This document shows, one piece after another, positions 2,190 through 60,876 of a stretch of 64,000 bases of DNA. Position 1 is the first letter of the stretch; the number at the start of each line of letters is the position of its first letter. Origin of the DNA: Bryum argenteum (lineage: Eukaryota > Streptophyta > Bryopsida > Bryales > Bryaceae). The translations under genes were made by a program, and so were the position numbers. The notes under the pieces were generated by a model. It ran no database searches. It saw nothing but the letters and a program-made list of their open reading frames with translations, and was not told the DNA's origin. The stretch covers positions 23,204,097-23,268,096 of the forward strand of contig CM073324.1 in assembly GCA_037043015.1 (NCBI GenBank), written 5' to 3'.

Positions 2190-3120
2190 CTGTCTTTGTC
2201 GGTGCTTGGGTAGTCGCGTCGGTTTGTGTGCTTGGTCCGTACTTGAGTCAGTCGTGTGTTTGGTCCGTGCGTGGGTGAGTCGTGTGTTTGGTTTGTGCTT
2301 GGGTGCTTGGTCCTTGCTTGGGTTAGTAGTGTGCTTGGTATGTGCTTGATATGTGCTTGGTCTATGCTTGGGACACTCATGTGCTTGGTCCATGCTTAGG
2401 TGAGTCGTGTGCTTGGGTGAGTCTTTGGATACTGCTTGGTCCGTGCTTGGGATAGTCGTGTGTTTGGTTCGTGCTAGGGTTAGTCGTGTGCTTGGTCCGT
2501 GATTGGGCCAGTCGTATACTTGGTCCATGCTTGAGTTAATCGTGTGCTTGGTCCGTGATTGGGTCAGTCGTGTGCTTGGTCCGTGATTGGGTCAGTCGTG
2601 TGCTTGGTCCGTGATTGGGTCAGTCGTGTGCTTGGTCCGTGATTGGGTCAGTCGTGTGCTTGCTCCGTGATTGGATCAGTCGTGTGCTTGGTCCGTGATT
2701 GGGTCAGTCGTGTGCTTGCTCCGTGAAAGGGTCAATCGTGTGCTTGGTCCGTGATTGGATCAGTCGTGTGCTTGGGTGTTTGGTCCATGCTTGCTTGGGT
2801 TAGTCATGTGCTTGGTTCAAGCTTGGTTAGTCGTGTGCTTGGTATGTCCTTGGTCTATGCTTGGGTCAATCACGTGCTTGGTCTATGCTTGGGTCACTCA
2901 TGTGTTTGGTCCATGTTTGAGTCGGTCATGTGCTTGGTCCATGCTTGGGTGAATCATGTGCTTGGTCCATGCTTGGGTGAATCATGTGCTTGGTCCATGC
3001 TTGGGTGAACCATGTGCTTGGTCTGTGCTTGGGCCAGTCGTGTCATATGTTTGGGTTAGTGTGCTTGGTCCGTGCTTGGGTCAATTTGTGTGTGTGCTTT
3101 GTGCTTGGGACAATGTGCAT
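2190..3120. repeat. Minisatellite, 28-bp unit, about 0.9 kb
   Basis: Tandem array with consensus unit GTGATTGGGTCAGTCGTGTG followed by CTTGGTCC (28 bp). Units between about 2545 and 2760 are nearly identical. Those on either side are diverged and vary in length, with GCTTGG and AGTCGTGTG as recurring words. The array is open in several frames on both strands (for example 154 codons at 2064-2528 minus), but the products are pure repeat translation and I do not regard them as genes. Confidence 0.9.
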
Positions 3121-4615: not shown

Positions 4616-7600
4616 CTACTGGGCATACATCATTGGGGAAGCCGGCTCCGAGTCTCGCAGCTGTGAAGCTCCGATTTCCCCATCTTCTCTACTACCACCA
4701 TCTTCTGTGCTGGAGGTGTCACTGGAGTCGTCACTGTGGACCACAACATGGTGTCTTACCAGGGGTCCAAAGCTGAGAGCCGTGAGGTTCAGCATTCCAT
4801 TGCCAGCTCCTTGTTGCTCTTGAGCCTCGCCACCATCGTTAGCATGTTTCGGTGTTGTCTGGCTCATGTCAATATCTACATCACCGGCGGCTTCGGTACC
4901 GGTTTTCTCTTCAGCATTCCTCTCTCCTGCTATATTATTAGTGGCAACTTGACTCGCTGCGTGCTCTGCTCCCTCGTCACTCGTCCTGCGGGGGATCATC
5001 ATCAGAGGCTCCACTCGCTCGGCACTGGATGAATCATCCTCTCCGTGCGCTGCTGTGGTCATTGCCCAGCTGCCTGCTACCTCGGACGCCATCAAGTCTG
5101 CTGTACATAGGGAGTCTCTGGGGTGCCTTCTGCTGAACATTGCCCCTGCTGCTTGTGATATACCTCGATGATCTTCAAACCACCAAACCACAGCTTAGAA
5201 TCACATGATCCGAAGGTCACCTATTATGCTCAAGGATAGATGAAGTTCATGAAGACAACGGAAGATCAGTCTCACCATCTGCACCATCGTCCCACTGCGC
5301 TGTATTTTCAATCACGGTGCCGACGCCCATGTGGTCTGGATGTGCATTGGCTTCGTCGTCCATTGGTTCGTCTTCGTCATCTCTGTGAGCTGCTGCCATT
5401 CCATCTTGACCCACATTAGAAGATCTAGCTCGTGGAGAACCTCCTGAGAAGCAGAAATTAAATCACAAAGTCAGGAGAGGGTTACGATGTCATAATGCAA
5501 TATTCCTACGCACCACCAAGAGTATTACAAGAAAAACTTTGAGTCAGGTTGATTAATCTGGTAGAACATAGTTTTAAATGTCCATTTTTGATCCATTGAT
5601 GTCTACTCTCCATCCACAGCAAACTCTGATACAGGGTTTTCATCGATGGCATGTACTGTAGCAAGGGTGGAGTCCTGCAACTGCTAGATGGGTGTTGTTC
5701 CTTAGTTTCTATATACTACAACAGAAACGTTAATGTCATCTACGTCGGGCCCACAATGCATTTCAGATTTTATAAAATAGTCGCAACCAAATTTCAAATC
5801 ATCAGGATTCCACGTCTTAGAAGACGAATAATTTAGCATCAACACCAACCTTTTCACAAATAGAAGATGCCATTACACACCTTCCAAGTTGTCTTCGGGG
5901 TTGAGCAGTTGCGTACAGCCCGGGTCAAAACTGGCAATCTGAGTGAAGCCAGCTTCTCCAGGTTCTTGCTGAGTGGCCCCGATGATATCACCGCTTGTGA
6001 ATGGAACAAAAGCGGAGTTCCCATGACGAAACAAGCCAGTTTCATCGTACGTCGACGCGATTTTCAGACTGCCGCAGACATCGATTTGCGTCGGAACAGC
6101 TTGGGTAGGAGGGATATTAACATCTGAGGACCGTGACGCGTCGGAACATCCGTCTTGTTGTGTATCGCCTTCGGTGTCATCGTCTATGGCCGTCCCCTTG
6201 CTCTTCTCCTCATCCTCGCGTTTGTTTTCAAGTTGCTGCACAGGCCGACGACTCCCAGATGTACTTTGAGATGTGCCTCTCGTTTCCTTGCTACCTTGAT
6301 TCAGGAGGGTGACTTTAGTGGGTTGACTGGTACTGCGCACAGTGGTATTGTCGTGATCGCTATCACCATCTTCAAGTGTTCGAATCATCGTTAATAACTG
6401 GTCCTGCTGCCTCTGCTGCAAATCAGCTATTTCTGCGGCGGTCGAATGAAACGCTCGCAGTTGAGATTCTCTGCTAGATTAACAAAACATGCGTTAAAGA
6501 GAGAAACGTTTCAACAGGGGAAAGGATTATTTCGATATCTTGCTGATTAGCAGCCCTTATGATTACGAGAGGGAAGATGACAAGTCGGTGCTTACCGAAG
6601 CACGATGCGCTCTCGTGCACCTTGTAAGCGCTGCTTCTCTAACTTCAAATCTCTAGATGCTGCTTCCATCTCCACTTCAAACCTCGCAATCCTTGCTTCG
6701 GCACCTTCTCTTGCTATCTGTCGACCGGTTGGACCGAATGCAGGATACGTGAATGAGTACAAGCTATTGGAACGTCTATAGAGGCTGAGCGACTCTCTTA
6801 ATGCTTCAAAGTCCAGGGTTCATCATGATATATCAATTCAAAGATTTCCAGCAAAAATACAATACCTTCTCATCTTCCAGCTCTCTGAATGTCTGCTGAA
6901 GTCGGACTTCATGAGCATCTGCTCTCTGAGGCACAGACCAAAACACAAAACATCTCAGTTTTTACGATAACTACAAGCATTCCATTCCGGGTAAACTTCG
7001 AGCTTGGTCGAAACTAAGTTCATTTTACAGATGGTCTTACTGTTTGTGCTGCTGAACTTAAAACTTTCTCCTCTTGAAGTTGAGACTCCAGCCGACGAGC
7101 TCGCTCTTCTGCAGCAACAACGGCCGCCCTTTCGGAATCCTGAATCCAAGAGCGGGTAGAAGCAGTCATACATCAATCTGCTGAGACTCTGAGATAAGCA
7201 GAAGTAGCTACCATCTTTTATCACACTCAGCCTGACGCCAACCTCATGGTCATGCAGCAGGATGAATGGCTAGAATGACTTGGTTAGCTCACATTCAAGA
7301 GAGAAATCATCGAGGAATTTATATGCTTTTGCAACAGCTGACGTTGAACTACACATAATGGAGAAGTAGCCGCTGAGAAGCACATCATATTCCTTCGAGG
7401 TGTTTCAAGGGCACGAAGAAAGTGAAAAACTCTCTGCTTGTTTGCCAGCAGCAGAAGTGAAGGTGACAAGCCTTCGAAAGTGTAGATTCTCCAGTTACAA
7501 AAGCTTAGAAAAGCATACCAGCTTCTTCCGCGAAATTTCAGCAGCTGCACGGTACTCCTTCTCTCCTTCCTGCGCAAGCTCAATGCATCATACCGAATTT

Positions 7601-18029: not shown

Positions 18030-18398
18030 TTAACCCTTAAATGGCCTTCCACTCCCCAATGGGCAGCCCGAAATTGGATCTCAGCATCTTTTGGACTTGG
18101 GCATCATGAATAGTGCACTTTTTGAACTTGGGCATCATGAATGAACCAATCAATGATGAGCTTGCAACCTCCTACAAGGTTTTGTGCAACCCCAACCTAC
18201 CTACCACAATCCTTTCAAATCACATATCTCTCATACAAATTGTGATTTGGATTGTGAAATTTTACTATGTGGATGCATCATAAGAAGGTGACCACAATGA
18301 TATAAAAATATAAGCAAAAAGTGAAGAATCAAATGAGCTACAGAGAAGATTCTGCAGGAAAACAGCCCGAGGGGCTGACAGGGCCGTTTAAGGGTTAA
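18030..18398. mobile_element. Short TTAA-bounded inverted-repeat element, 369 bp
   Basis: The left end TTAACCCTTAAATGGCC (18030) and right end GGCCGTTTAAGGGTTAA (18398) are inverted repeats with one mismatch over 17 bases. TTAA at both tips would be the duplicated target. The interior is non-coding and contains a short direct repeat, GACTTGGGCATCATGAAT and GAACTTGGGCATCATGAAT. Confidence 0.7.
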
Positions 18399-33430: not shown

Positions 33431-33699
33431 TTAACCCCTAAATTTCCTTGTTGCAAAACGGTCTAAGTCACAAAATTTGACCTTCCTTCAAGATCAAGCT
33501 CAAAAAATCTTAATCCAAGCATTATTTTAGAGATTTAACCGTAAGATCTCAAAGTTCACTTGACCTTCTTCTCCCATACCAAATTTGAACCGTTCATTCT
33601 TCCTCATTTGTGAGATTATAATGGTCAAAGTTGGCTGAGTTTTTCTACTGCGGGAACCTCCAAAACCCGTTTCGGGTTTTAAGGAGAGTTAGGGGTTAA
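33431..33699. mobile_element. Short TTAA-bounded inverted-repeat element, 269 bp
   Basis: The left end TTAACCCCTAAATTTCCTT (33431) and the complement of the right end, TTAACCCCTAACTCTCCTT (33699), are inverted repeats with two mismatches. TTAA at each tip is the putative target duplication. The interior is non-coding. The termini match those at 18 kb and 49-52 kb, but the interior does not obviously match. Confidence 0.7.
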
Positions 33700-47986: not shown

Positions 47987-48299
47987 ACGAGTGGCTCTAG
48001 ATTCCTCGACATGCAATTCGAGCCAGGGCTCTTAAAGGTTGACAGATGGATTAGAATCTCCAATCCTGAAGGGTACATCTTCATTCACAATGATGCTCAT
48101 TCAATCTTCATCTTTCCAAGAAGGTTCCTAGTTTGAGAAATGACAATATTTTGGTCAAAGGACATGATTGCGGAGCAGTTGGCTTGGTCTCATTGCCTTT
48201 GTCATCCAGGTTACAGGAAGATGCTATATGCCGAGTTGCCGACAGTGGCCAGTGGAGCTTTGTCAGCCCTACAGTTTTGGGTTGGATTCCATTCAAAGT
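47987..48299. other. Upstream region of the membrane-protein gene
   Basis: Probable 5' UTR and promoter of the minus-strand gene starting at 47986. No clear motif. The sequence passes into repeat element A at about 48.2-48.3 kb. Confidence 0.3.
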
Positions 48300-48746
48300 C
48301 TTGTTTTAGTGGTAGAAACTTTAACCTGATTAAATATGTATTGATGATAGGGTATGAAATTTGCGTGTAAGGGGTCTAGTTTTGGACTATTTTTTCTTTG
48401 TAAGATTTGGGGCAGTTTTCATCATTGAAAAAGTACTATTTGAGCCAAGATATTTGTTTGAGAGAAAGATGAACAGCTTCCTAGTTGATTGCAAATTTCA
48501 TGTTCGTAGTATTTTCACTTTGAAGTAAAAAGGATAGTTTCTGCAGCTTGTTTTGCACACTAGAACATTATGATCTCACAATTTCTAAGGTCCCATGAGT
48601 CAAGTTTTAGTTCACATGATTTACAACAAGTCTACTACAAGTTTGTACACTTGAAATCTAAGTAAATTATCTTCATTTCCATCTATGTCACTTTTCTGAG
48701 AACTGAGTTTTTGGCTGAAAGTACCCCAAGAAATTTTAGGGGTTAA
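48300..48746 (+). mobile_element. TTAA element copy A, apparently 5'-truncated
   Basis: Aligns by eye in the same orientation with the right half of copy B (about 49440-49935). Shared landmarks are GTCTAGTTTTAG-type words, CTTTGTAAGATTTGGG, a TTTTCACTTTGAAGTAA stretch, the GATCTCACAATTTCTAAGG stretch and the end TTTTAGGGGTTAA (48734-48746). No matching left TTAACCC tip is present upstream. No ORF of note. Confidence 0.6.
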
Positions 48747-48954
48747 GGGGGGGTGGGGTAATGTGTTTAATTATATGATATTAACAACCAATATTCTAAT
48801 CAAGGAGTTGAGGTACGACGAACAATTCTAGAGCAAGTGAATCAGGTATTTCACTTATGAGGACGAGGCTTTTGAAAAACCAAATAGGGTATGTAGGAGG
48901 ATGATAATAGCTTACATACCTTCAATTTTGTTAAAGGTACTTGAGATACACCCG

Positions 48955-49935
48955 TTAACCCTTAATTGGGCCGAATTTCAAAAATTGACATATTGGATGA
49001 CTACAACAACTTTGAAAAGTCATAACTTCTTCATCCGGAGTGTGTTTTGGATGAAATTAATTGAGGTGCGTCTCAAATCAAGTATACTTTGTGTGGAAAA
49101 AATCTCAGACTCATGCAATGAAGTATGAATATATGAAATGCATTTTAGTAAAGGTGGCTCTTGTTTTTGAGTTTTCAAACATGGGGTGTGTTTTGCCATT
49201 GGGAGGCCATTATGGGAAAACAAATAGATATTCTCATGACTTTTTATACATAATCATGATCTTCAGATGAAAGCTAATAAAATCTTTGTAGGAGGATTTT
49301 TTATGCAGATATTTTTGATATTGGATTTGCAACGATGTTTCTATCATGAAAGAAAGTGAATAACTGAATGAATTATGAGGGGCTATATCTCCTTATCCAT
49401 TGTTGGATTTTGACTTTATTTTTTGAAACTGATTCCAATTAGAGTCTAGTTTTAGTAGTAGAAAATTTGACAAAATCAAAGATGTATTGAAGATGAGGCA
49501 TAGATTTGAGTGCCAAGGGTTGAGATTTGGACCTTTTTTCCTTTGTAAATTCCTTTGTCAATTTTCACCATTGCAAGGTGATTATTTGGAAAAAGAAATT
49601 CTTCTCATGAATCTTTTTCGTTCAAGGTTGTTAATGAGATGAAGGTGAACATCTTCGTAGGTGGTAATTTTTTGATTGCAATAAGTATGTTGGTAGCATT
49701 TTTACTTTGGAGTAAGAATGTTGAGATTTTGTGATGTTTTTTTGAGTACTAATATGTTACGATCTTGCAATATATAAGGTCTCATGACTCAAAATTTGAC
49801 TGACATGATGTACAATATGTTTACTATGAGATTGTACGCTTGAGATCCAAATAACTCACCTTTGTCTCCATTTATGACACTTTGTTTGAGAGTGTGTTTT
49901 TTTTCTAGTGGTGAGTCAAACCATTTAGGGGTTAA
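48955..49935 (+). mobile_element. TTAA element copy B, 981 bp, apparently complete
   Basis: Begins TTAACCCTTAATTGGGCC (48955) and ends CATTTAGGGGTTAA (49935), so both tips read TTAA then CCCYTAA inward. The left part matches the complement of the right end of copy C: GGGCCGAAT, TTGACATATTGGATGAC and ACTTCTTCATCCGG occur in the same order. The right part matches copy A. Longest ORF is about 75 codons, so it is non-autonomous. Confidence 0.7.
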
Positions 49936-50525
49936 AAAAGTGGTTTGTATCTTAAAAGTCACTCAAAACACAACATGCTCATGTTTTTCATACTTTGTGC
50001 CTTAAAATCACTCAAATCTCAACAATGGTCATGTCTGATTAGAAGAGTGGTCATGTTGCATTCTTCTTTCATTACACTCATACATTTACAAATGACTATT
50101 CAAATTGTGGTGTTGGATAGTCTTACAAGAAAGGCATGCCACCGCTCTTGGATCCTCAACTTTCAGCTCCTACATGTCAAACTCTCATGCCATGACATTG
50201 GAAATACAATCCAAATAATGGCCCTACACATCATGGACGGTGGAGAAACGACTTGGTATGGAGCTGGAAATTCGAGCGCCATGCGTTAGAGAAGAAGCAA
50301 CTTGGTAATTCGATCACCGCAATGCTTGCTCAAAAACAAGGTCCAAAGAGAAATAAATTGAATGGAGAATGGCGGGTCCCTTAGAGCCCTATACCCTAAG
50401 ATTCCTTTGCCCACCGTTGGCCGGACTATATCCCCTTAATCACTTGCTATATCAAATGTTTGTCAACTTTAGATTCCTCATTCCATACCTCACAATTTAT
50501 AATTAGTGCAAAGGAAAAAGTTATG
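49936..50525. other. Intergenic, no supported gene
   Basis: AT-rich. One plus-strand ORF of 114 codons (49945-50289) has no recognisable motif and begins inside repeat-like sequence. I do not support it as a gene. Confidence 0.35.
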
Positions 50526-50656
50526 GTTGAAACAACATTGTTCAAACAACATAATGAGGAAAATGTTGTTTCTAACTCTGAAGTGTTGTTTGGCACTAGT
50601 GGTTGAAACAACATTCAAATCTTTGGCAATATGTTGTTTCATTATGTTGTTTCAAC
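50526..50656. mobile_element. 131-bp inverted-repeat element with GTTGAAACAACAT ends
   Basis: The ends GTTGAAACAACAT (50526-50538) and ATGTTGTTTCAAC (50644-50656) are exact inverted repeats of 13 bases. Additional internal copies of AACAACAT and ATGTTGTTT occur in both orientations. It could be a tiny MITE or a palindromic satellite remnant. Confidence 0.5.
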
Positions 50657-51319
50657 AAAGTTCTCCACTAATGTCTTCACCTACTCGAACCTCGATTGTG
50701 GTGTACAATGGCCAGGATGATTCACGTTCATTCTATAGCATTAGAATTTGCATAAGTGTTGTTGTGAATGATTAGATTTAGCTTGGGATTCACAATTGTA
50801 ATCATTTGCTTGTTCGTAGCTAGGCTCAAAAATCTACATGGATGCAAATCTACATGGATGCAACTGAAAAATCACCAATCTCTCTTCCGACCGTGAGTAC
50901 AGGACCGTGAGTACAAGTTCCGAGTGAAAGAATGCTCCTAGCTCATCTTCTCCGATCTTAGTTTTTGTGGCGAATTACTTGCTACTGCACCTAGAGCGCC
51001 TCCACCACCCACATTCGATAAAGTGTCGCCTACAACAATGTGCAAATCAAGTGGACAGCTTTACAGATAATGTCATGCCAGTTTCAAGGTACTGAGATTC
51101 TGGGAAGCGCAACTTGGTTCTTCAATAAACATGCATATGAATCTGAACCTATGGAGCTCTTCACAGCAACTACTGGTCATCTCTAAAACTGACCGTTGCT
51201 CTATTTTGGAGTTGTGCACGTATGCGCTTCACTTGGACGATGGCCGAGGAGGCTTGCTGAGAAAGATTTACAAGGAGCTCTAGACCTCAGCTTACATAGA
51301 CCCCTATCTCTGTGTTTGA
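50657..51319. other. Intergenic, no supported gene
   Basis: Nothing coding recognised. Contains a short direct repeat of ATCTACATGGATGCAA at about 50830-50862 and a repeated CGTGAGTACA near 50890-50915. Confidence 0.35.
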
Positions 51320-51780
51320 ACATATCATTATTTAGCTCGACTTGCTCTTCCGGCTGGGTCTCTGCGGCAACCTCGTGTGCTACGGCCTCTCGGCGCTACA
51401 CCTCTGGCGCTAGGACCTCTTGCGCCTCTTGCGCGACAACATCTTGCGCCACAACCTCTCGCGCTACGACCTATGGCGTTAGGACCTTTTGCTCAACAAC
51501 TTGCGACGCAACAACATCTTGCGCGAGAACCTCTAACGCTACAACCTCTCGCGTGGCAACTTCTTGCGTGGCAACCTCTCTCCATACGACCTATGGTGCA
51601 ACTCACGCTAAGACCTCTTATGCAACAACTTCCGGCTTGACAACCTCTGACGCGGCCTCCTCTTTAGCGGCCTCGTCATTAGGCTAGCCCTCCTCGTGAG
51701 CGGCCTTGTTATTAGGCCAACCCTCCTCCAACGAGACCTCTCCTGCAGCTTCCTCCTCACTAGTTCAACATTACAAGGAG
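51320..51780 (-). pseudogene. Decayed copy of a hexapeptide-repeat gene
   Basis: On the minus strand this reads as degenerate repeats of an 18-bp unit encoding EVVAQE-like hexapeptides (EVLAQDVVA, REVVAQDVVAQE), with several in-frame stops. It starts with EEGWPNNKAAHEEG at about 51720. The segment aligns along its length with 53690-54060, including the shared flank around CGACTTGCTCTTC, so the two are direct duplicates about 2.3 kb apart. A plus-strand ORF of 163 codons here is a Thr/Ser/Ala-rich shadow. Function unknown. Confidence 0.55.
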
Positions 51781-51914
51781 GAAAAGGCTAACTAAGAAAA
51801 AAAATTAAAATGTTAATACTCAAATTATTGTGTTTGCTATGCAGAAAAGAGAGCTTTCTAGAATTTACCGTAGAGAAATTGCCTTGAAAGTTGAATCCCA
51901 AATAAGTGAGGCCT

Positions 51915-52529
51915 TTAACCCCTAAATGGTTTGACTCATTTGTAGTAAAATGAACACATCCTCAAAAGCATTGTCATAGGTGGAGGTAAAAGTGTGTTAT
52001 CCAAATCTCAACCGTACAATCTTGTTGTAGACATATTGAACATCATGTGGGTCAAATTTTGAGTCATGAGGCTTCATAGATTGCGAGATCATAATGTATT
52101 AATACTCAAAAATGATCACATAATTTCATCATTTTCACTTTAAAGTGAAAATGCTACCATTAGACTTATTGCAATGAAAAAGTCACCAATTAGAATGTTG
52201 TTCACCTTCATCTCAGTAGCATCCTTGAAAAAAAAAAAACCATGAGAAAAATTTCTTTGTGCAAATTATGGCCCTGCAATGGTGAAAACTGCCCTAAATT
52301 TTACAAAGGAAAAAATGTCTAAAACTAGGCTGCTGTCACTGAAATGCATGCCATTAATTCATACTTCATTGTGTGGGTCTGAGATTTTTATGACATGAAC
52401 TAAACTTGATTTGGGACCCAACCCAAGTGATTTCGTCCAAAACGGAGGCCGGATGAAGAAGGTATGGCTCTCCAAAGTTTCTGTCATCCAGAATGTCGAT
52501 TTTCGACATTCGGCCCGCTTAAGGGTTAA
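51915..52529 (-). mobile_element. TTAA element copy C, 615 bp, inverted relative to B
   Basis: Begins TTAACCCCTAAATGG (51915) and ends CCCGCTTAAGGGTTAA (52529). Its complement from the right end matches the left end of copy B over about 130 bases, including GGGCCGAAT, TCTGGATGAC, CTTCTTCATCCGG, CGTTTTGG and CAAATCAAGT. It is shorter than B by internal deletion. No transposase. Confidence 0.7.
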
Positions 52530-53446: not shown

Positions 53447-54399
53447 TTAGAACTCTTCATCCATATAGCCTTCATTTCTCTTCACACTCGATCCTATAGC
53501 ATCGATGTTTGGAGACTCCTCGGTGGTTGCATCATCATGAACCACCTTTCCTTTCCCTTTCCTTTTCGCAATCTCTTTGGCATAGGCGTCTCCTTGGTGT
53601 TCGGCCTCGGCATTGTTGGTAATTACACCAAAACCCTGAGATTCTTCAGCTCGTTTGGTGCGTTTGCGTCCACCAAGTTGGAAGCTATCTCCTTCTCTGA
53701 ACATATCGTCATCTGGCCGACTTGCTCTTCTGATTGAGACTCTTCTGTAGCGGCAACCTCGTGCACTACAACCTCTTGAGCTACGACCTCTCGCACTACG
53801 ACCTTTGGCGCTAGGACCTCTCGGGCAACAGCATCTTGGGCAACAACCGTTCGCGCGAAAGCCTCGGTGGCGCTAGGACCTCTCGCGCAACAACATCTTG
53901 CACGAGAATCTCTAACGCTACAACCCCTCCGCTCTACAACCTGTAGTGGTGCTATGACCTCTTGCGCTAAGACCGCTTGCACGACAACTTCTGGCTCGAC
54001 AACCTCAAGCGCAACCTCCTCTTGAGCGGCCTTGTCATTAGGCCAACCCTCCTCCGACTAGACCTCATGTGCAACATCGGCATCGTCCTCCACCAAGACC
54101 TGCTCGTGCCCGGCTTTCTCCATCCACACCTCTTTGACGTGCTTGGCCTCCACAATCGTATCCATCGCAATCTGATCCATGCAAGAAATTGAGGTCTTCA
54201 TCTTAGTGACACCGTTTGAACTAGTTGGCTCCTTAAAAGTTGCACTAAGTTGCACTTCATCTATCAAACTGAGAGCATATATACTCCGGTCGACGTGTGT
54301 CGCAACATAGTCCTCTACTCCCGAGGCGACAACATGCATTTGTGATGGCATGATCATGGTTGTGTGCAATTTAAAGAAATGTCCAAAGTGCCTACCCAT
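53447..54399 (-). pseudogene. Hexapeptide-repeat (EVVAQE) gene, broken by a stop and a frameshift
   Basis: I do not recognise the family. Read on the minus strand, an N-terminal part begins MGRHFGHFFKLHTTMIMPSQ (54399) and runs to AHEV, where TAG at 54058 stops it. The same frame continues with SEEGWPNDKAAQEEV and a Val/Glu/Ala-rich repeat (EVVVREVVAQEVVVHEVAAT) to about 53750. The reading then has to change frame in the 53623-53704 overlap to reach a basic C-terminus with GGRKRTKRAEESQGFGVI and EIAKRKGKGKVVHDDATTEE (stop 53447). One stop and one frameshift suggest decay, or exon boundaries I cannot see. A sister copy lies at 51320-51780. Confidence 0.45.
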
Positions 54400-55079: not shown

Positions 55080-55605
55080 TGTCCAACCTAAATTCTCTAT
55101 CCTATTCACTATCCAACACCCAAGCCCTGTCCAACTCTCAAGCCCAACCACAAGTCCTATCAAACTTACAAACCCAACCTCCAAGAAGACCCGAGTCTAG
55201 TCAAACTCACAAGCCCAACACCAAGCCGTGCCTAGTCCTGTCAAACTTCCAAACCCAACCCCCGGCAAGTCCAATCCCCAAGCTCTCTCCAACTTACAAG
55301 CCCAACCCCCAAGCCCTGTCCAAGTCCAACCCCCAAGCCCTGTCCAAGTCCAAACCCCAAGCCCTATTCAAGTCCAACCCCTAAGCCCTATCCAAGTCCA
55401 ACCCTTAAGCCCTATCCAAGTCCAACCCCAAGCCCATTCCAAGCCCATTCCAAGTCCAACCCCCAAGTCCAAACCTCGAGCCCTATCCAAGTCCGACCCT
55501 CGAGCCTTCTCAACTCCTGTCAAAATACAAGCCCAACCCCCAACCCCGCTTCAACTCTTCTGAAACTCACGAGCCCAACCCCAGTCCAACTCGCAAACCC
55601 TGTAA
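55080..55605. repeat. C-rich minisatellite, CCAAGCCC(T/A)(G/A)TCCAAGT units
   Basis: Degenerate tandem array of units such as CAAGCCCTGTCCAAGTCCAA, mostly 18-25 bp, with strong C-rich strand asymmetry. Translation gives QALSKSNP-type (frame 1) and SPVQVQPP-type (frame 2) repeats on the plus strand. Both frames stay open for more than 100 codons simply because the unit lacks stops, so no gene is called. Confidence 0.8.
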
Positions 55606-59400: not shown

Positions 59401-60876
59401 TCAGGTTGAGTTTTGGATCTTTGGATTTTTTGCCATTCTCGCTCAAATGGCTCGCAAGGCTCCTTTGGCTTGGCGGGTGCATCTCGATTGTCACGAGCTC
59501 GTATGTTGAGTTTTAGTCCATTTCGCTTCCCTCGTCTTCTGCCTGGACCTCCTGTGACCAATATGTGGGTAGTGGAAGGTTAGGCACTTGGACAGAAGTA
59601 GCAAAGATTAAATTCCATATAGCCCAGAATTTTTACCAGCTCGTTCTGCATCAATAGCAGCTCTGTATTCAATGCCAATTGCCTCGTAGCTTGGAGTAAA
59701 CCTTTCATTGTTCTCGCTTAAGATCCTCTTCAACTCGAGACGAGGGTACCGGGGGTACTCTTTATTCAAGATATAGTAGGTCCAAAGCATATAGTTTTCT
59801 TGTATTTCTGGCGGTAAGACCTCCAAATCAATGTCCATCTGCTGGTCTCTGGCGTTACTAGGTCCGACCCCATCCGTCATTGTCCTTACCTGCCTGTCCA
59901 CCGGCGTCTCAATCACCCTTGCCTGCCTGTCCACCGGCGTCTCAATCACCCTTGCCTGCCTGTCCATTGGCGTCTCAATCACCCGAGGAAGATCTGTCAC
60001 CAAACAGGAACCAGCCACATCAATAAACGATGGTGTTTCCTCCTCTAAGTTGTCACTAATGTGATCTAAAACAAGACATATGAGAGAGCACGATATTCCC
60101 AAAGAATAAAAAAGATGAATCACACAATGACTATGCTTCAGACCCAAATTCATTACCTAATTATTAAATAGGAATCACAATGCAAAATCGAGCATTTCTA
60201 TATTTCACGAATTCAACATACCAGGCTTTGGATCTTGCTGTGGTGCTTTCTTGGCCTTGGGAAATCCATGCTCCAGATACCGGTGAATGATCCTCTCCGA
60301 CGCGAGTCCCGGTGAAGTTTTCTTGAACTGCGCGGCCAAATGTTCTTCAACTGTTTTCGGGCATGCCTCCGTAAATATCTGGAGAACTGTCGATTTTTCC
60401 TTGTCAAGCGCTTTCTGGTCGGTCCGTTCTCCTAAAAGGTCCTTCACGACCTTCTTTTCCTTCAGAGAAGACTTCGGACGAGGAGTCTCTACAACGTCCT
60501 TCCCCTTGTCAAGTACTTCCTGGTTCTTCCTTTCCCCTACAAGGTCCTTCGAAATCTTCTTTTCCTTCAGAGAGGTCTTCGAAGGAGGAGTCTCTACAAC
60601 GTCCTTCCCCTTGTCAAGTACTTGCTGGTTCGTCCTTTCCCCTACAAGGTCCTTCGAGACCTTCTTTACCTTCGCAGCAGACTTCAAAGCAGCCTTTTCA
60701 AAGGCCTTTCTTAACTTCGCAGCAGCAGCCTTACCTCCTGTGATGCAAGCTGTACTGCCCACAGAATCTGTATCCGACAATGCGATGACTGCGCCTGTAG
60801 AGTCATCGCCAAGCTCAATCGGCTCCTTTCCCTTGCGCCTCTCCATTGCAGCTTGGGCAGGCCCGTCAGCCACCAT
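56434..60876 (-). CDS. RBR-type E3 ubiquitin ligase, RNF216/TRIAD3-like
   Basis: Predicted RING-between-RING ligase: RING1 binds the E2 and a RING2 cysteine forms a ubiquitin thioester. Minus-strand exons, N to C: a basic N-terminus (60990-60225) with three 35-residue repeats (KDLVGERTNQQVLDKGKDVV); an exon (about 60066-59634) with DRQARVIETPV three times and EIQENYMLWTYYILNKEYPR; RING1 (IECGCCCMDYRFEEMVQ, CAEGHLFCFTCLRRRIEEST, PCMDTSGCEEFFPWSE); KRALPPDVLAKYEQRQAEDA; IBR (VYCPFCNTPWEIDPDMKVLE, CANETCRK, ASCVLCREPNHIPLRCEEVE); RING2 (RVCSACKAELLKSDGCNK, VTCRCGKTMCYVCRQPI, YQHFCQ; likely catalytic Cys in KVTC). The tail (PCTMCKKCNLWEE, then KRTIGPKLEKAP to stop 56434) mirrors the animal RNF216 tail HPR..PC..C.KC.LW and IGPPLEK. 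The start is uncertain: 60876 is the first in-frame ATG of the first coding exon seen, and an upstream exon could add residues. Confidence 0.88.
58059..58110. repeat. Four tandem 13-bp units in an intron of the RBR gene
   Basis: GAGGCCAAAGTTC repeated four times; the first three units are followed directly by another and the fourth by AGATCC. It lies in the intron between the exon encoding ASCVLCREPNH (58.4 kb) and that encoding NSETALRRSVEE (57.97 kb). Probably a replication-slippage array. Confidence 0.9.
59891..59989 (-). repeat. Three 33-bp in-frame repeats in the RBR gene
   Basis: The plus-strand unit begins TGCCTGTCCACCGGCGTCTC and is 33 bp long, present three times. On the coding strand it encodes the 11-residue DRQARVIETPV. 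Being a multiple of three, it leaves the frame intact. Confidence 0.9.
60395..60670 (-). repeat. Three 105-bp in-frame repeats in the RBR N-terminus
   Basis: Each unit encodes about 35 residues of the pattern KKxSKDLVGERxNQxVLDKG then KDVVETPxxxxSLKE. The third copy is shortened after LDKEKS. The protein repeats are Lys/Glu-rich and probably disordered. DNA similarity between the first two copies is high, suggesting recent duplication. Confidence 0.85.

Follow-up and report, generated by a model that had tools for sequence, protein, structure and literature searches.

A family of piggyBac-like, TTAA-bounded non-autonomous elements in the moss Bryum argenteum and a candidate source of their transposase

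Introduction

The closest described systems to the elements reported here are piggyBac (PDB entries 6x67 and 6x68), which we take to be the element of Trichoplusia ni, and piggyBat (9c0f), whose host is an animal. We analyzed a 64,000-nucleotide (nt) stretch of the moss Bryum argenteum (the window; G000:C4:23204097-23268096, in an assembly of 258.8 Mb and 25 contigs) that contains two related elements, B and C, in opposite orientation. B, C, and their relatives are very probably non-autonomous transposons of the piggyBac superfamily, similar to miniature inverted-repeat transposable elements (MITEs), that are mobilized in trans, with an autonomous family that we call P as the most likely source for B and C.

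Like piggyBac, the moss elements have a TTAA target, tips that start with CCC, and transposases of the DDE_Tnp_1_7 type. The catalytic aspartates are present in the T1, Y, and P transposases discussed below, and a cysteine-rich C terminus is present in Y and P. The systems differ in size, as piggyBac is about 2.5 kb long and encodes 594 amino acids, whereas the moss elements that were read are 5-6 kb long, with frames of 909 and 1331 codons that include a long, unmatched N-terminal part. Unlike piggyBac of Trichoplusia ni, the moss elements lie amid thousands of non-autonomous copies. Among PDB entries, piggyBat matches the Y transposase best, at low sequence similarity and with a weak match to its cysteine-rich tail.

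According to the literature, piggyBac is common across animals, fungi, and protists and occasional in plants, for example in red algae (PMC12732532, a 2025 study of beetles). Animal elements usually have CCCTT-type tips and target TTAA or, in rare cases, another 4-mer, for example CTAA or TTAG (PMC10813416), and a haptophyte alga contains PiggyBac families (PMC5963040). PiggyBac is also among the superfamilies present in all groups studied, land plants included (PMC4438587), and among those listed for plants (PMC10794571); a fern contains 1,230 PiggyBac fragments amounting to 122 kb (PMC6890710), and PiggyBac is named as an angiosperm MITE superfamily (PMC10004981). These angiosperm MITEs (PMC10004981) resemble the moss elements in being short, non-coding, present in high copy number, and assigned by target site and tips; the moss elements differ in that an exact 46-nt tip ties them to autonomous elements sequenced in the same genome.

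Our literature search, in which coverage of subscription journals was incomplete, found no paper on moss piggyBac elements and no moss case in which autonomous partners, boundaries, empty sites, and a recent burst had been worked out. An initial annotation of the window had suggested that such elements are not established in land plants. This holds approximately if a worked-out case is meant, but plant piggyBac is on record as repeat annotation (PMC6890710, PMC4438587, PMC10004981, PMC10794571). The kind of element is therefore known; what is new is that it has radiated on a large scale, and in part recently, in a land plant.

TTAA-bounded elements in the window

The exact tip TTAACCCYTAA occurs nine times in the window, where four complete convergent pairs are found. 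In 200 simulated windows (first-order Markov), the mean was 0.065 tips, the maximum was one, and there were no pairs. The elements are as follows.

48955-49935, plus strand: element B, 981 nt including both TTAA; complete, old, non-autonomous; TTAA-CCCTTAA ... TTTAGGGG-TTAA
48955-49000, plus strand: tip of B, 46 nt; shares 85% identity with the tips of C and the autonomous P element
51915-52529, minus strand: element C, 615 nt including both TTAA; complete, young, non-autonomous; opposite in orientation to B
52484-52529, minus strand: tip of C, 46 nt; identical to the P-element tip, with the inverted repeat AATGTCGAAAATCGACATT inside
48277-48746, plus strand: element A, a left-truncated relative of B; right tip TTTTAGGGG-TTAA
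1-812, minus strand: left-edge relative of B; CAGGGGTTAA at 803-812, TTAA at 809-812, tip decayed
18030-18398, strand unassigned: element E, 369 nt, complete, non-autonomous; TTAA-CCCTTAAATGGCC...GGCCGTTTAAGGG-TTAA; one tip related to T-type autonomous elements
33431-33699, strand unassigned: element D, 269 nt, complete, non-autonomous; TTAA-CCCCTAAATTTCC...GGAGAGTTAGGGG-TTAA
32125-32305, minus strand: degenerate fragment, 70% identical over 189 nt to the end of a Y-type autonomous element; tip decayed

The tips of B are TTAA-CCCTTAATTGGGCC and TTAA-CCCCTAAATGG and those of C are TTAA-CCCCTAAATGG and TTAA-CCCTTAAGCGGGCC, so that both elements read TTAA-CCCYTAA at each end, as the initial annotation had it. 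It had also described B and C as inverted relatives with a shared terminal segment, which the alignment bears out: in inverted orientation C is 78% identical to B over 440 nt (B 543-981) and 195 nt (B 1-195), and by this alignment C is B minus positions 196-542. The proposed kinship of A and the left-edge copy with B likewise held, as A (48285-48712) is 67% identical to B 477-947, the left-edge element is 66% identical to B 40-624, and both end in TTAA. Elements D and E come in addition to the copies first noted. Near full-length relatives of D, 89-93% identical, were found in three of the loci fetched from elsewhere in the genome (L017, L047, and L066; fetched loci carry the letter L).

The window's list of open frames contains none of at least 130 codons inside B or C. 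CCCYTAA is found at both ends of B, C, D, and E and also of T1, Y1, L067, and L068, which are transposase loci described below. The terminal inverted repeats are imperfect; in B, C, D, E, T1, Y1, and L067 they agree at 11-17 of the 20 outermost nt.

Copies and boundaries across the genome

Genome-wide, TTAACCCYTAAA matches 23,184 sites, compared to 401 for the reversed pattern; counting exact tips alone, this is equivalent to about 11,000 elements intact at both ends. Searches for single tips gave 586 sites for the right tip of the B/C group (at most two mismatches in 28 nt) and 341 for the other tip of C (at most two mismatches in a 45-mer), with no sites for either reversed control. Searches with whole elements gave 6,414 first-look candidates for B and 5,771 for C, of which 40 each, the query's own place included, were scored.

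Apart from B itself, the scored places of the B type (39) show 77-83% identity to it in the main match, which marks an old family. All 40 scored C places match exactly positions 1-615, from TTAA to TTAA, at 99-100% identity, a figure biased toward young copies because the scored places are the best-scoring ones; one extra row in this search was a partial 81% match adjoining one of the 40. The multiple diverged copies first described thus do not form a single family of even divergence: the B type is at 77-83%, and C is one of at least 40 near-identical copies. Because these copies are near-identical, the movement of C was recent, and C is most likely a B-type element that lost part of its interior and has multiplied of late.

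The similarity stops at the TTAA and does not run past it. The 16 C copies that were fetched, that of the window among them, have a mean pairwise identity of 0.996 within the element compared to 0.26 and 0.27 in the 100 nt beyond each end, which is chance level, and all 16 have TTAA on both sides. Among 30 fetched B-type loci, which are partly non-independent as L036 and L038 have common flanks, the alignment came within 3 nt of the left end in 22 and reached the right end in 16.

Contig C1, the largest at 44 Mb, is element-poor. On it, the first 100 exact tips are spread over 6.93 Mb, a density of about 14 per Mb compared to a genome-wide value of about 90 per Mb; of the right tips of the B/C group that have one mismatch, 5 fall on C1 and 72 on contig C2 (34.6 Mb); and 5 of the 116 transposases scored below lie on C1. 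One guess is that C1 is a sex chromosome or is differently organized.

piggyBac transposases and autonomous elements

The initial annotation proposed a search for piggyBac (DDE_Tnp_1_7) transposases bounded by CCCYTAA tips, and such transposases are present. With the PF13843 profile we obtained 776 first-look candidates in the genome, and all 116 that were scored lie above the curated cut-off. Seven of these 116 loci were read at both ends (T1, T2, Y1, Y2, Y3, L067, and L068). T1 and T2 (4.95 and 5.2 kb) are 97.8% alike, and their similarity starts and stops at TTAA-CCCTTAAACGCCC. The three Y copies, whose flanks are unrelated, agree at 99.8% over 5.7 kb; Y1 and Y2 carry TTAA-CCCCTAAAGGCCC at both ends, and Y3 has the same tips.

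The Y1 transposase is a single open frame of 909 codons from the first ATG (PF13843, 1.3e-75). Compared with PDB chains, the Y transposase matches piggyBac (6x67, 4.3e-25) and piggyBat (9c0f, 2.6e-27), the P transposase (PF13843, 8.4e-75) matches both (2.5e-25 and 2e-22, respectively), and that of T1 matches 6x67 (7.1e-26). The four catalytic aspartates, presumably D268, D346, D447, and D450 in piggyBac numbering, are kept in all three transposases examined (T1, Y1, and P). On alignment to 6x67 and 9c0f, they fall within VCVDEMM, TCDNFFTS, and RGVDVHDQ in T1; the corresponding motifs are LTIDEMM, TMDNYFTS, and RGVDVADQ in Y and VTVDELM, VTDNFFTS, and RGVDVSDQ in P. The cysteine-rich C terminus reads CVVC...C...C...CFEKWH in Y and CGFC...CKDC...H..ECFNKSH in P and aligns weakly to 9c0f / 6x67; at the thresholds used, Pfam reported no cysteine-rich domain for the Y or P transposase. 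The T1 frame ends within this domain. As the P, Y, and T transposases are mutually 37-38% identical, the radiation is old.

Long N-terminal parts precede the transposase domain in the frames at L068 (754-4746, 846 residues) and L046 (2198-4924, 388 residues), and neither part has a Pfam match above the cut-off. A scan of IMG/VR with a 414-residue piece of the Y transposase returned nothing, a weakly informative result.

Within the T elements, immediately ahead of the transposase, L001 (reverse complement, 1289), L002, and L005 all retain a motif that resembles a tip, TTAACCCCAAATTCC. The idea that these three loci are compact elements of 2.2-2.6 kb starting at this inner motif was rejected, as their mutual similarity continues upstream; the true left end of T1 and T2 is 2.6 kb beyond it.

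The P family as the likely source of B and C

We picked three P loci by eye, comparing 100 listed sites of the 341 with a C-type tip against the 116 scored transposases. Among these 100, the tip lies 3.1-3.3 kb before a transposase at C9:2510893, C2:1099528, and C2:9290327. The first locus (L068) is a 5.8-kb element with TTAA-CCCTTAAGCGGGCC at 34, TTAGGGG-TTAA at 5842, and, between these tips, one open frame of 1331 codons. Its first 46 nt are identical to the C tip (46/46) and 85% identical to that of B, while the interior is unrelated. All 16 C copies that were fetched, and most of the B-type copies that match, show this 46-nt limit. Such a sharp limit, together with the inverted repeat AATGTCGAAAATCGACATT inside it, is what one would expect of a transposase-binding tip. 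At the second locus, C2:1099528, the far end (L069) is 77% like that of P and has the tip CCCCTAAACGTTTCGTTCC adjoining TTAA; at the third, C2:9290327, the 1.5 kb fetched contained no matching far tip. P-family elements are 5.8-6.0 kb long.

The autonomous source, which the initial annotation had left as unknown, now has a likely candidate: judging from the exact 46-nt tip, the P family is most likely the source of the B and C families, and we infer that its transposase may mobilize C. L067 was also considered as the parent of C and rejected, as the B-type tip near its transposase is part of another, B-like copy and the element that carries the transposase is T-like.

It is unlikely, though worth weighing, that B and C instead depend on T, Y, or an unsampled family acting in trans on any CCCYTAA tip. 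The T, Y, B, and C tips all start with this motif, the nearly identical Y copies look recently active, and both ends have been read for just seven of the scored transposase loci. However, the T and Y tips diverge from that of C past about 12 nt, whereas P agrees at every position of the 46 with an unrelated interior. Far less probable is an origin in a Kolobok-type or other TTAA-targeting superfamily. Kolobok elements also make TTAA target duplications, but CCCYTAA tips at TTAA flank PF13843 transposases in T1, T2, Y1, Y2, L067, and L068, and the 46-nt tip common to C and L068 links C itself to PF13843.

Empty sites and the weight of the evidence

To return to the piggyBac assignment, we joined insertion flanks over one TTAA and compared them with all fetched loci; the resulting hits are mutually related and hence non-independent. 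At L058, a C copy sits in an older B-type copy, and the joined flanks are 96.4% identical over 165 nt to L065 and 97.2% identical over 109 nt to L027, both of which read CCTTAACAAGATC, with one TTAA. L049 is a nest, with a C-type element in a D-type element in a B-type copy. Its outer join (L049:933-1720) is 83.4% identical to the window's B and also matches L010, L011, and L012, with a single TTAA.

Separately, the B-type copy in L049 carries an insertion of about 247 nt (about 1919-2166) that is not TTAA-bounded; its inverted ends lie near TACCYGGCAAGAGAGAT, TGTACA appears to be duplicated, and it is another kind of transposon.

Several observations weigh against assigning these elements to piggyBac with P as their source. 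TTAA is present in 5 of 41 spanning hits at L058, the two nearest included, while 31 have TTGA, and in 7 of 49 at L049:933-1720. It is found in none of five at L049:965-1488, where four have CTAA and the nearest, L017, is at 92%; in none of eight for the window's 18030-18398, where six have TCCA, TTAG and CCCG also occur, and the best relative is at 79%; and in neither of two at L052, both of which have TTTA. Y3 (L048), one of the three young Y copies, has ATAA rather than TTAA on both sides; this insertion is a 4-bp duplication at a non-standard target. TTAA is intact at 19 of the 22 left and 14 of the 16 right B-type ends that were reached, not at all of them. As for the source, the other tip of L068, CCCCTAAACGTTTCGATCCATTG, is like that of C at only 18 of 25 nt, so that a closer relative outside the sample could be what C depends on, and the matched frame contains a stop at two of the three P loci. 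Finally, the support consists of the genomic sequence of one assembly.

Empty sites with one TTAA, which the initial annotation had called for, are thus found among the nearest relatives (L058 and L049:933-1720), whereas most distant relatives carry another 4-mer of the same length. Since nearly all hits cross the join gap-free near the join, the insertion unit is one 4-bp target; this fits the length even at 18030-18398, the oldest insertion in the test. The distant hits are mostly well below the nearest in identity, so decay of the 4-mer is expected, and we read the non-TTAA 4-mers in distant relatives as probable decay. TTAA is duplicated on insertion, as in piggyBac, with mixed empty sites and the ATAA of Y3 as exceptions.

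The boundaries, the nearest empty sites, and the transposases with CCCYTAA tips together support the original reading of these elements as piggyBac-like, TTAA-bounded, and non-autonomous. That they are no transposons at all, and represent chance TTAA repeats in AT-rich DNA or segmental duplications edged by TTAA, can be dismissed: segmental duplication does affect some copies (L036 and L038), but the simulations gave no pairs, all scored C places end at TTAA, the 16 fetched copies have unrelated flanks, and empty sites exist.

Proposed mechanism and significance

In the proposed mechanism, B and C, which have no transposase of their own, would use one supplied by autonomous piggyBac elements elsewhere in the genome. 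The transposase would bind the tips, cut at TTAA, and paste the element into another TTAA, leaving TTAA on both sides; that of P would act in trans on the ends of C and B. The chemistry would probably be cut-and-paste, excision may be precise, and the elements may still be active at present.

More tentatively, the genome may harbor an active endogenous land-plant piggyBac system in which several autonomous families are intact, the C burst is still transposing, and piggyBac is a main cut-and-paste group, possibly having arrived horizontally from a non-plant source; we consider this possible but short of probable. The moss combines open transposase frames and about 11,000 element-equivalents with copies young enough to suggest recent movement. 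A natural plant piggyBac lets one ask about its silencing, its horizontal transfer, and its use in plants as a tool for seamless excision.

Other features of the window and genome

Tandem arrays occur in the window at the following positions.

2226-3099: tandem array, unit 28 nt
51363-51612 and 53749-54025: tandem array, two sites flanking C, unit 15 nt
55084-55524: tandem array, unit 24 nt
60399-60713: tandem array, unit 105 nt

A foldback element at 921-1172 has ACTAGTA tips (CACTAGTA on the left and TACTAGT on the right), is flanked by GTCAT direct repeats, and contains the inverted pair 968-1034 / 1065-1131. Its tips recall what we take to be those of CACTA elements. The window frame at 35511-36044 matches DUF936 (1.5e-58), a plant protein according to Pfam. 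The LEAFY DNA-binding domain encoded in the genome (106 residues searched) has as its best match 4bhk (6.8e-71, 5 differences in 105 residues, 95% identity), presumably from the moss Physcomitrium, which points to a moss host; the next chains follow well behind at 4.6e-50.

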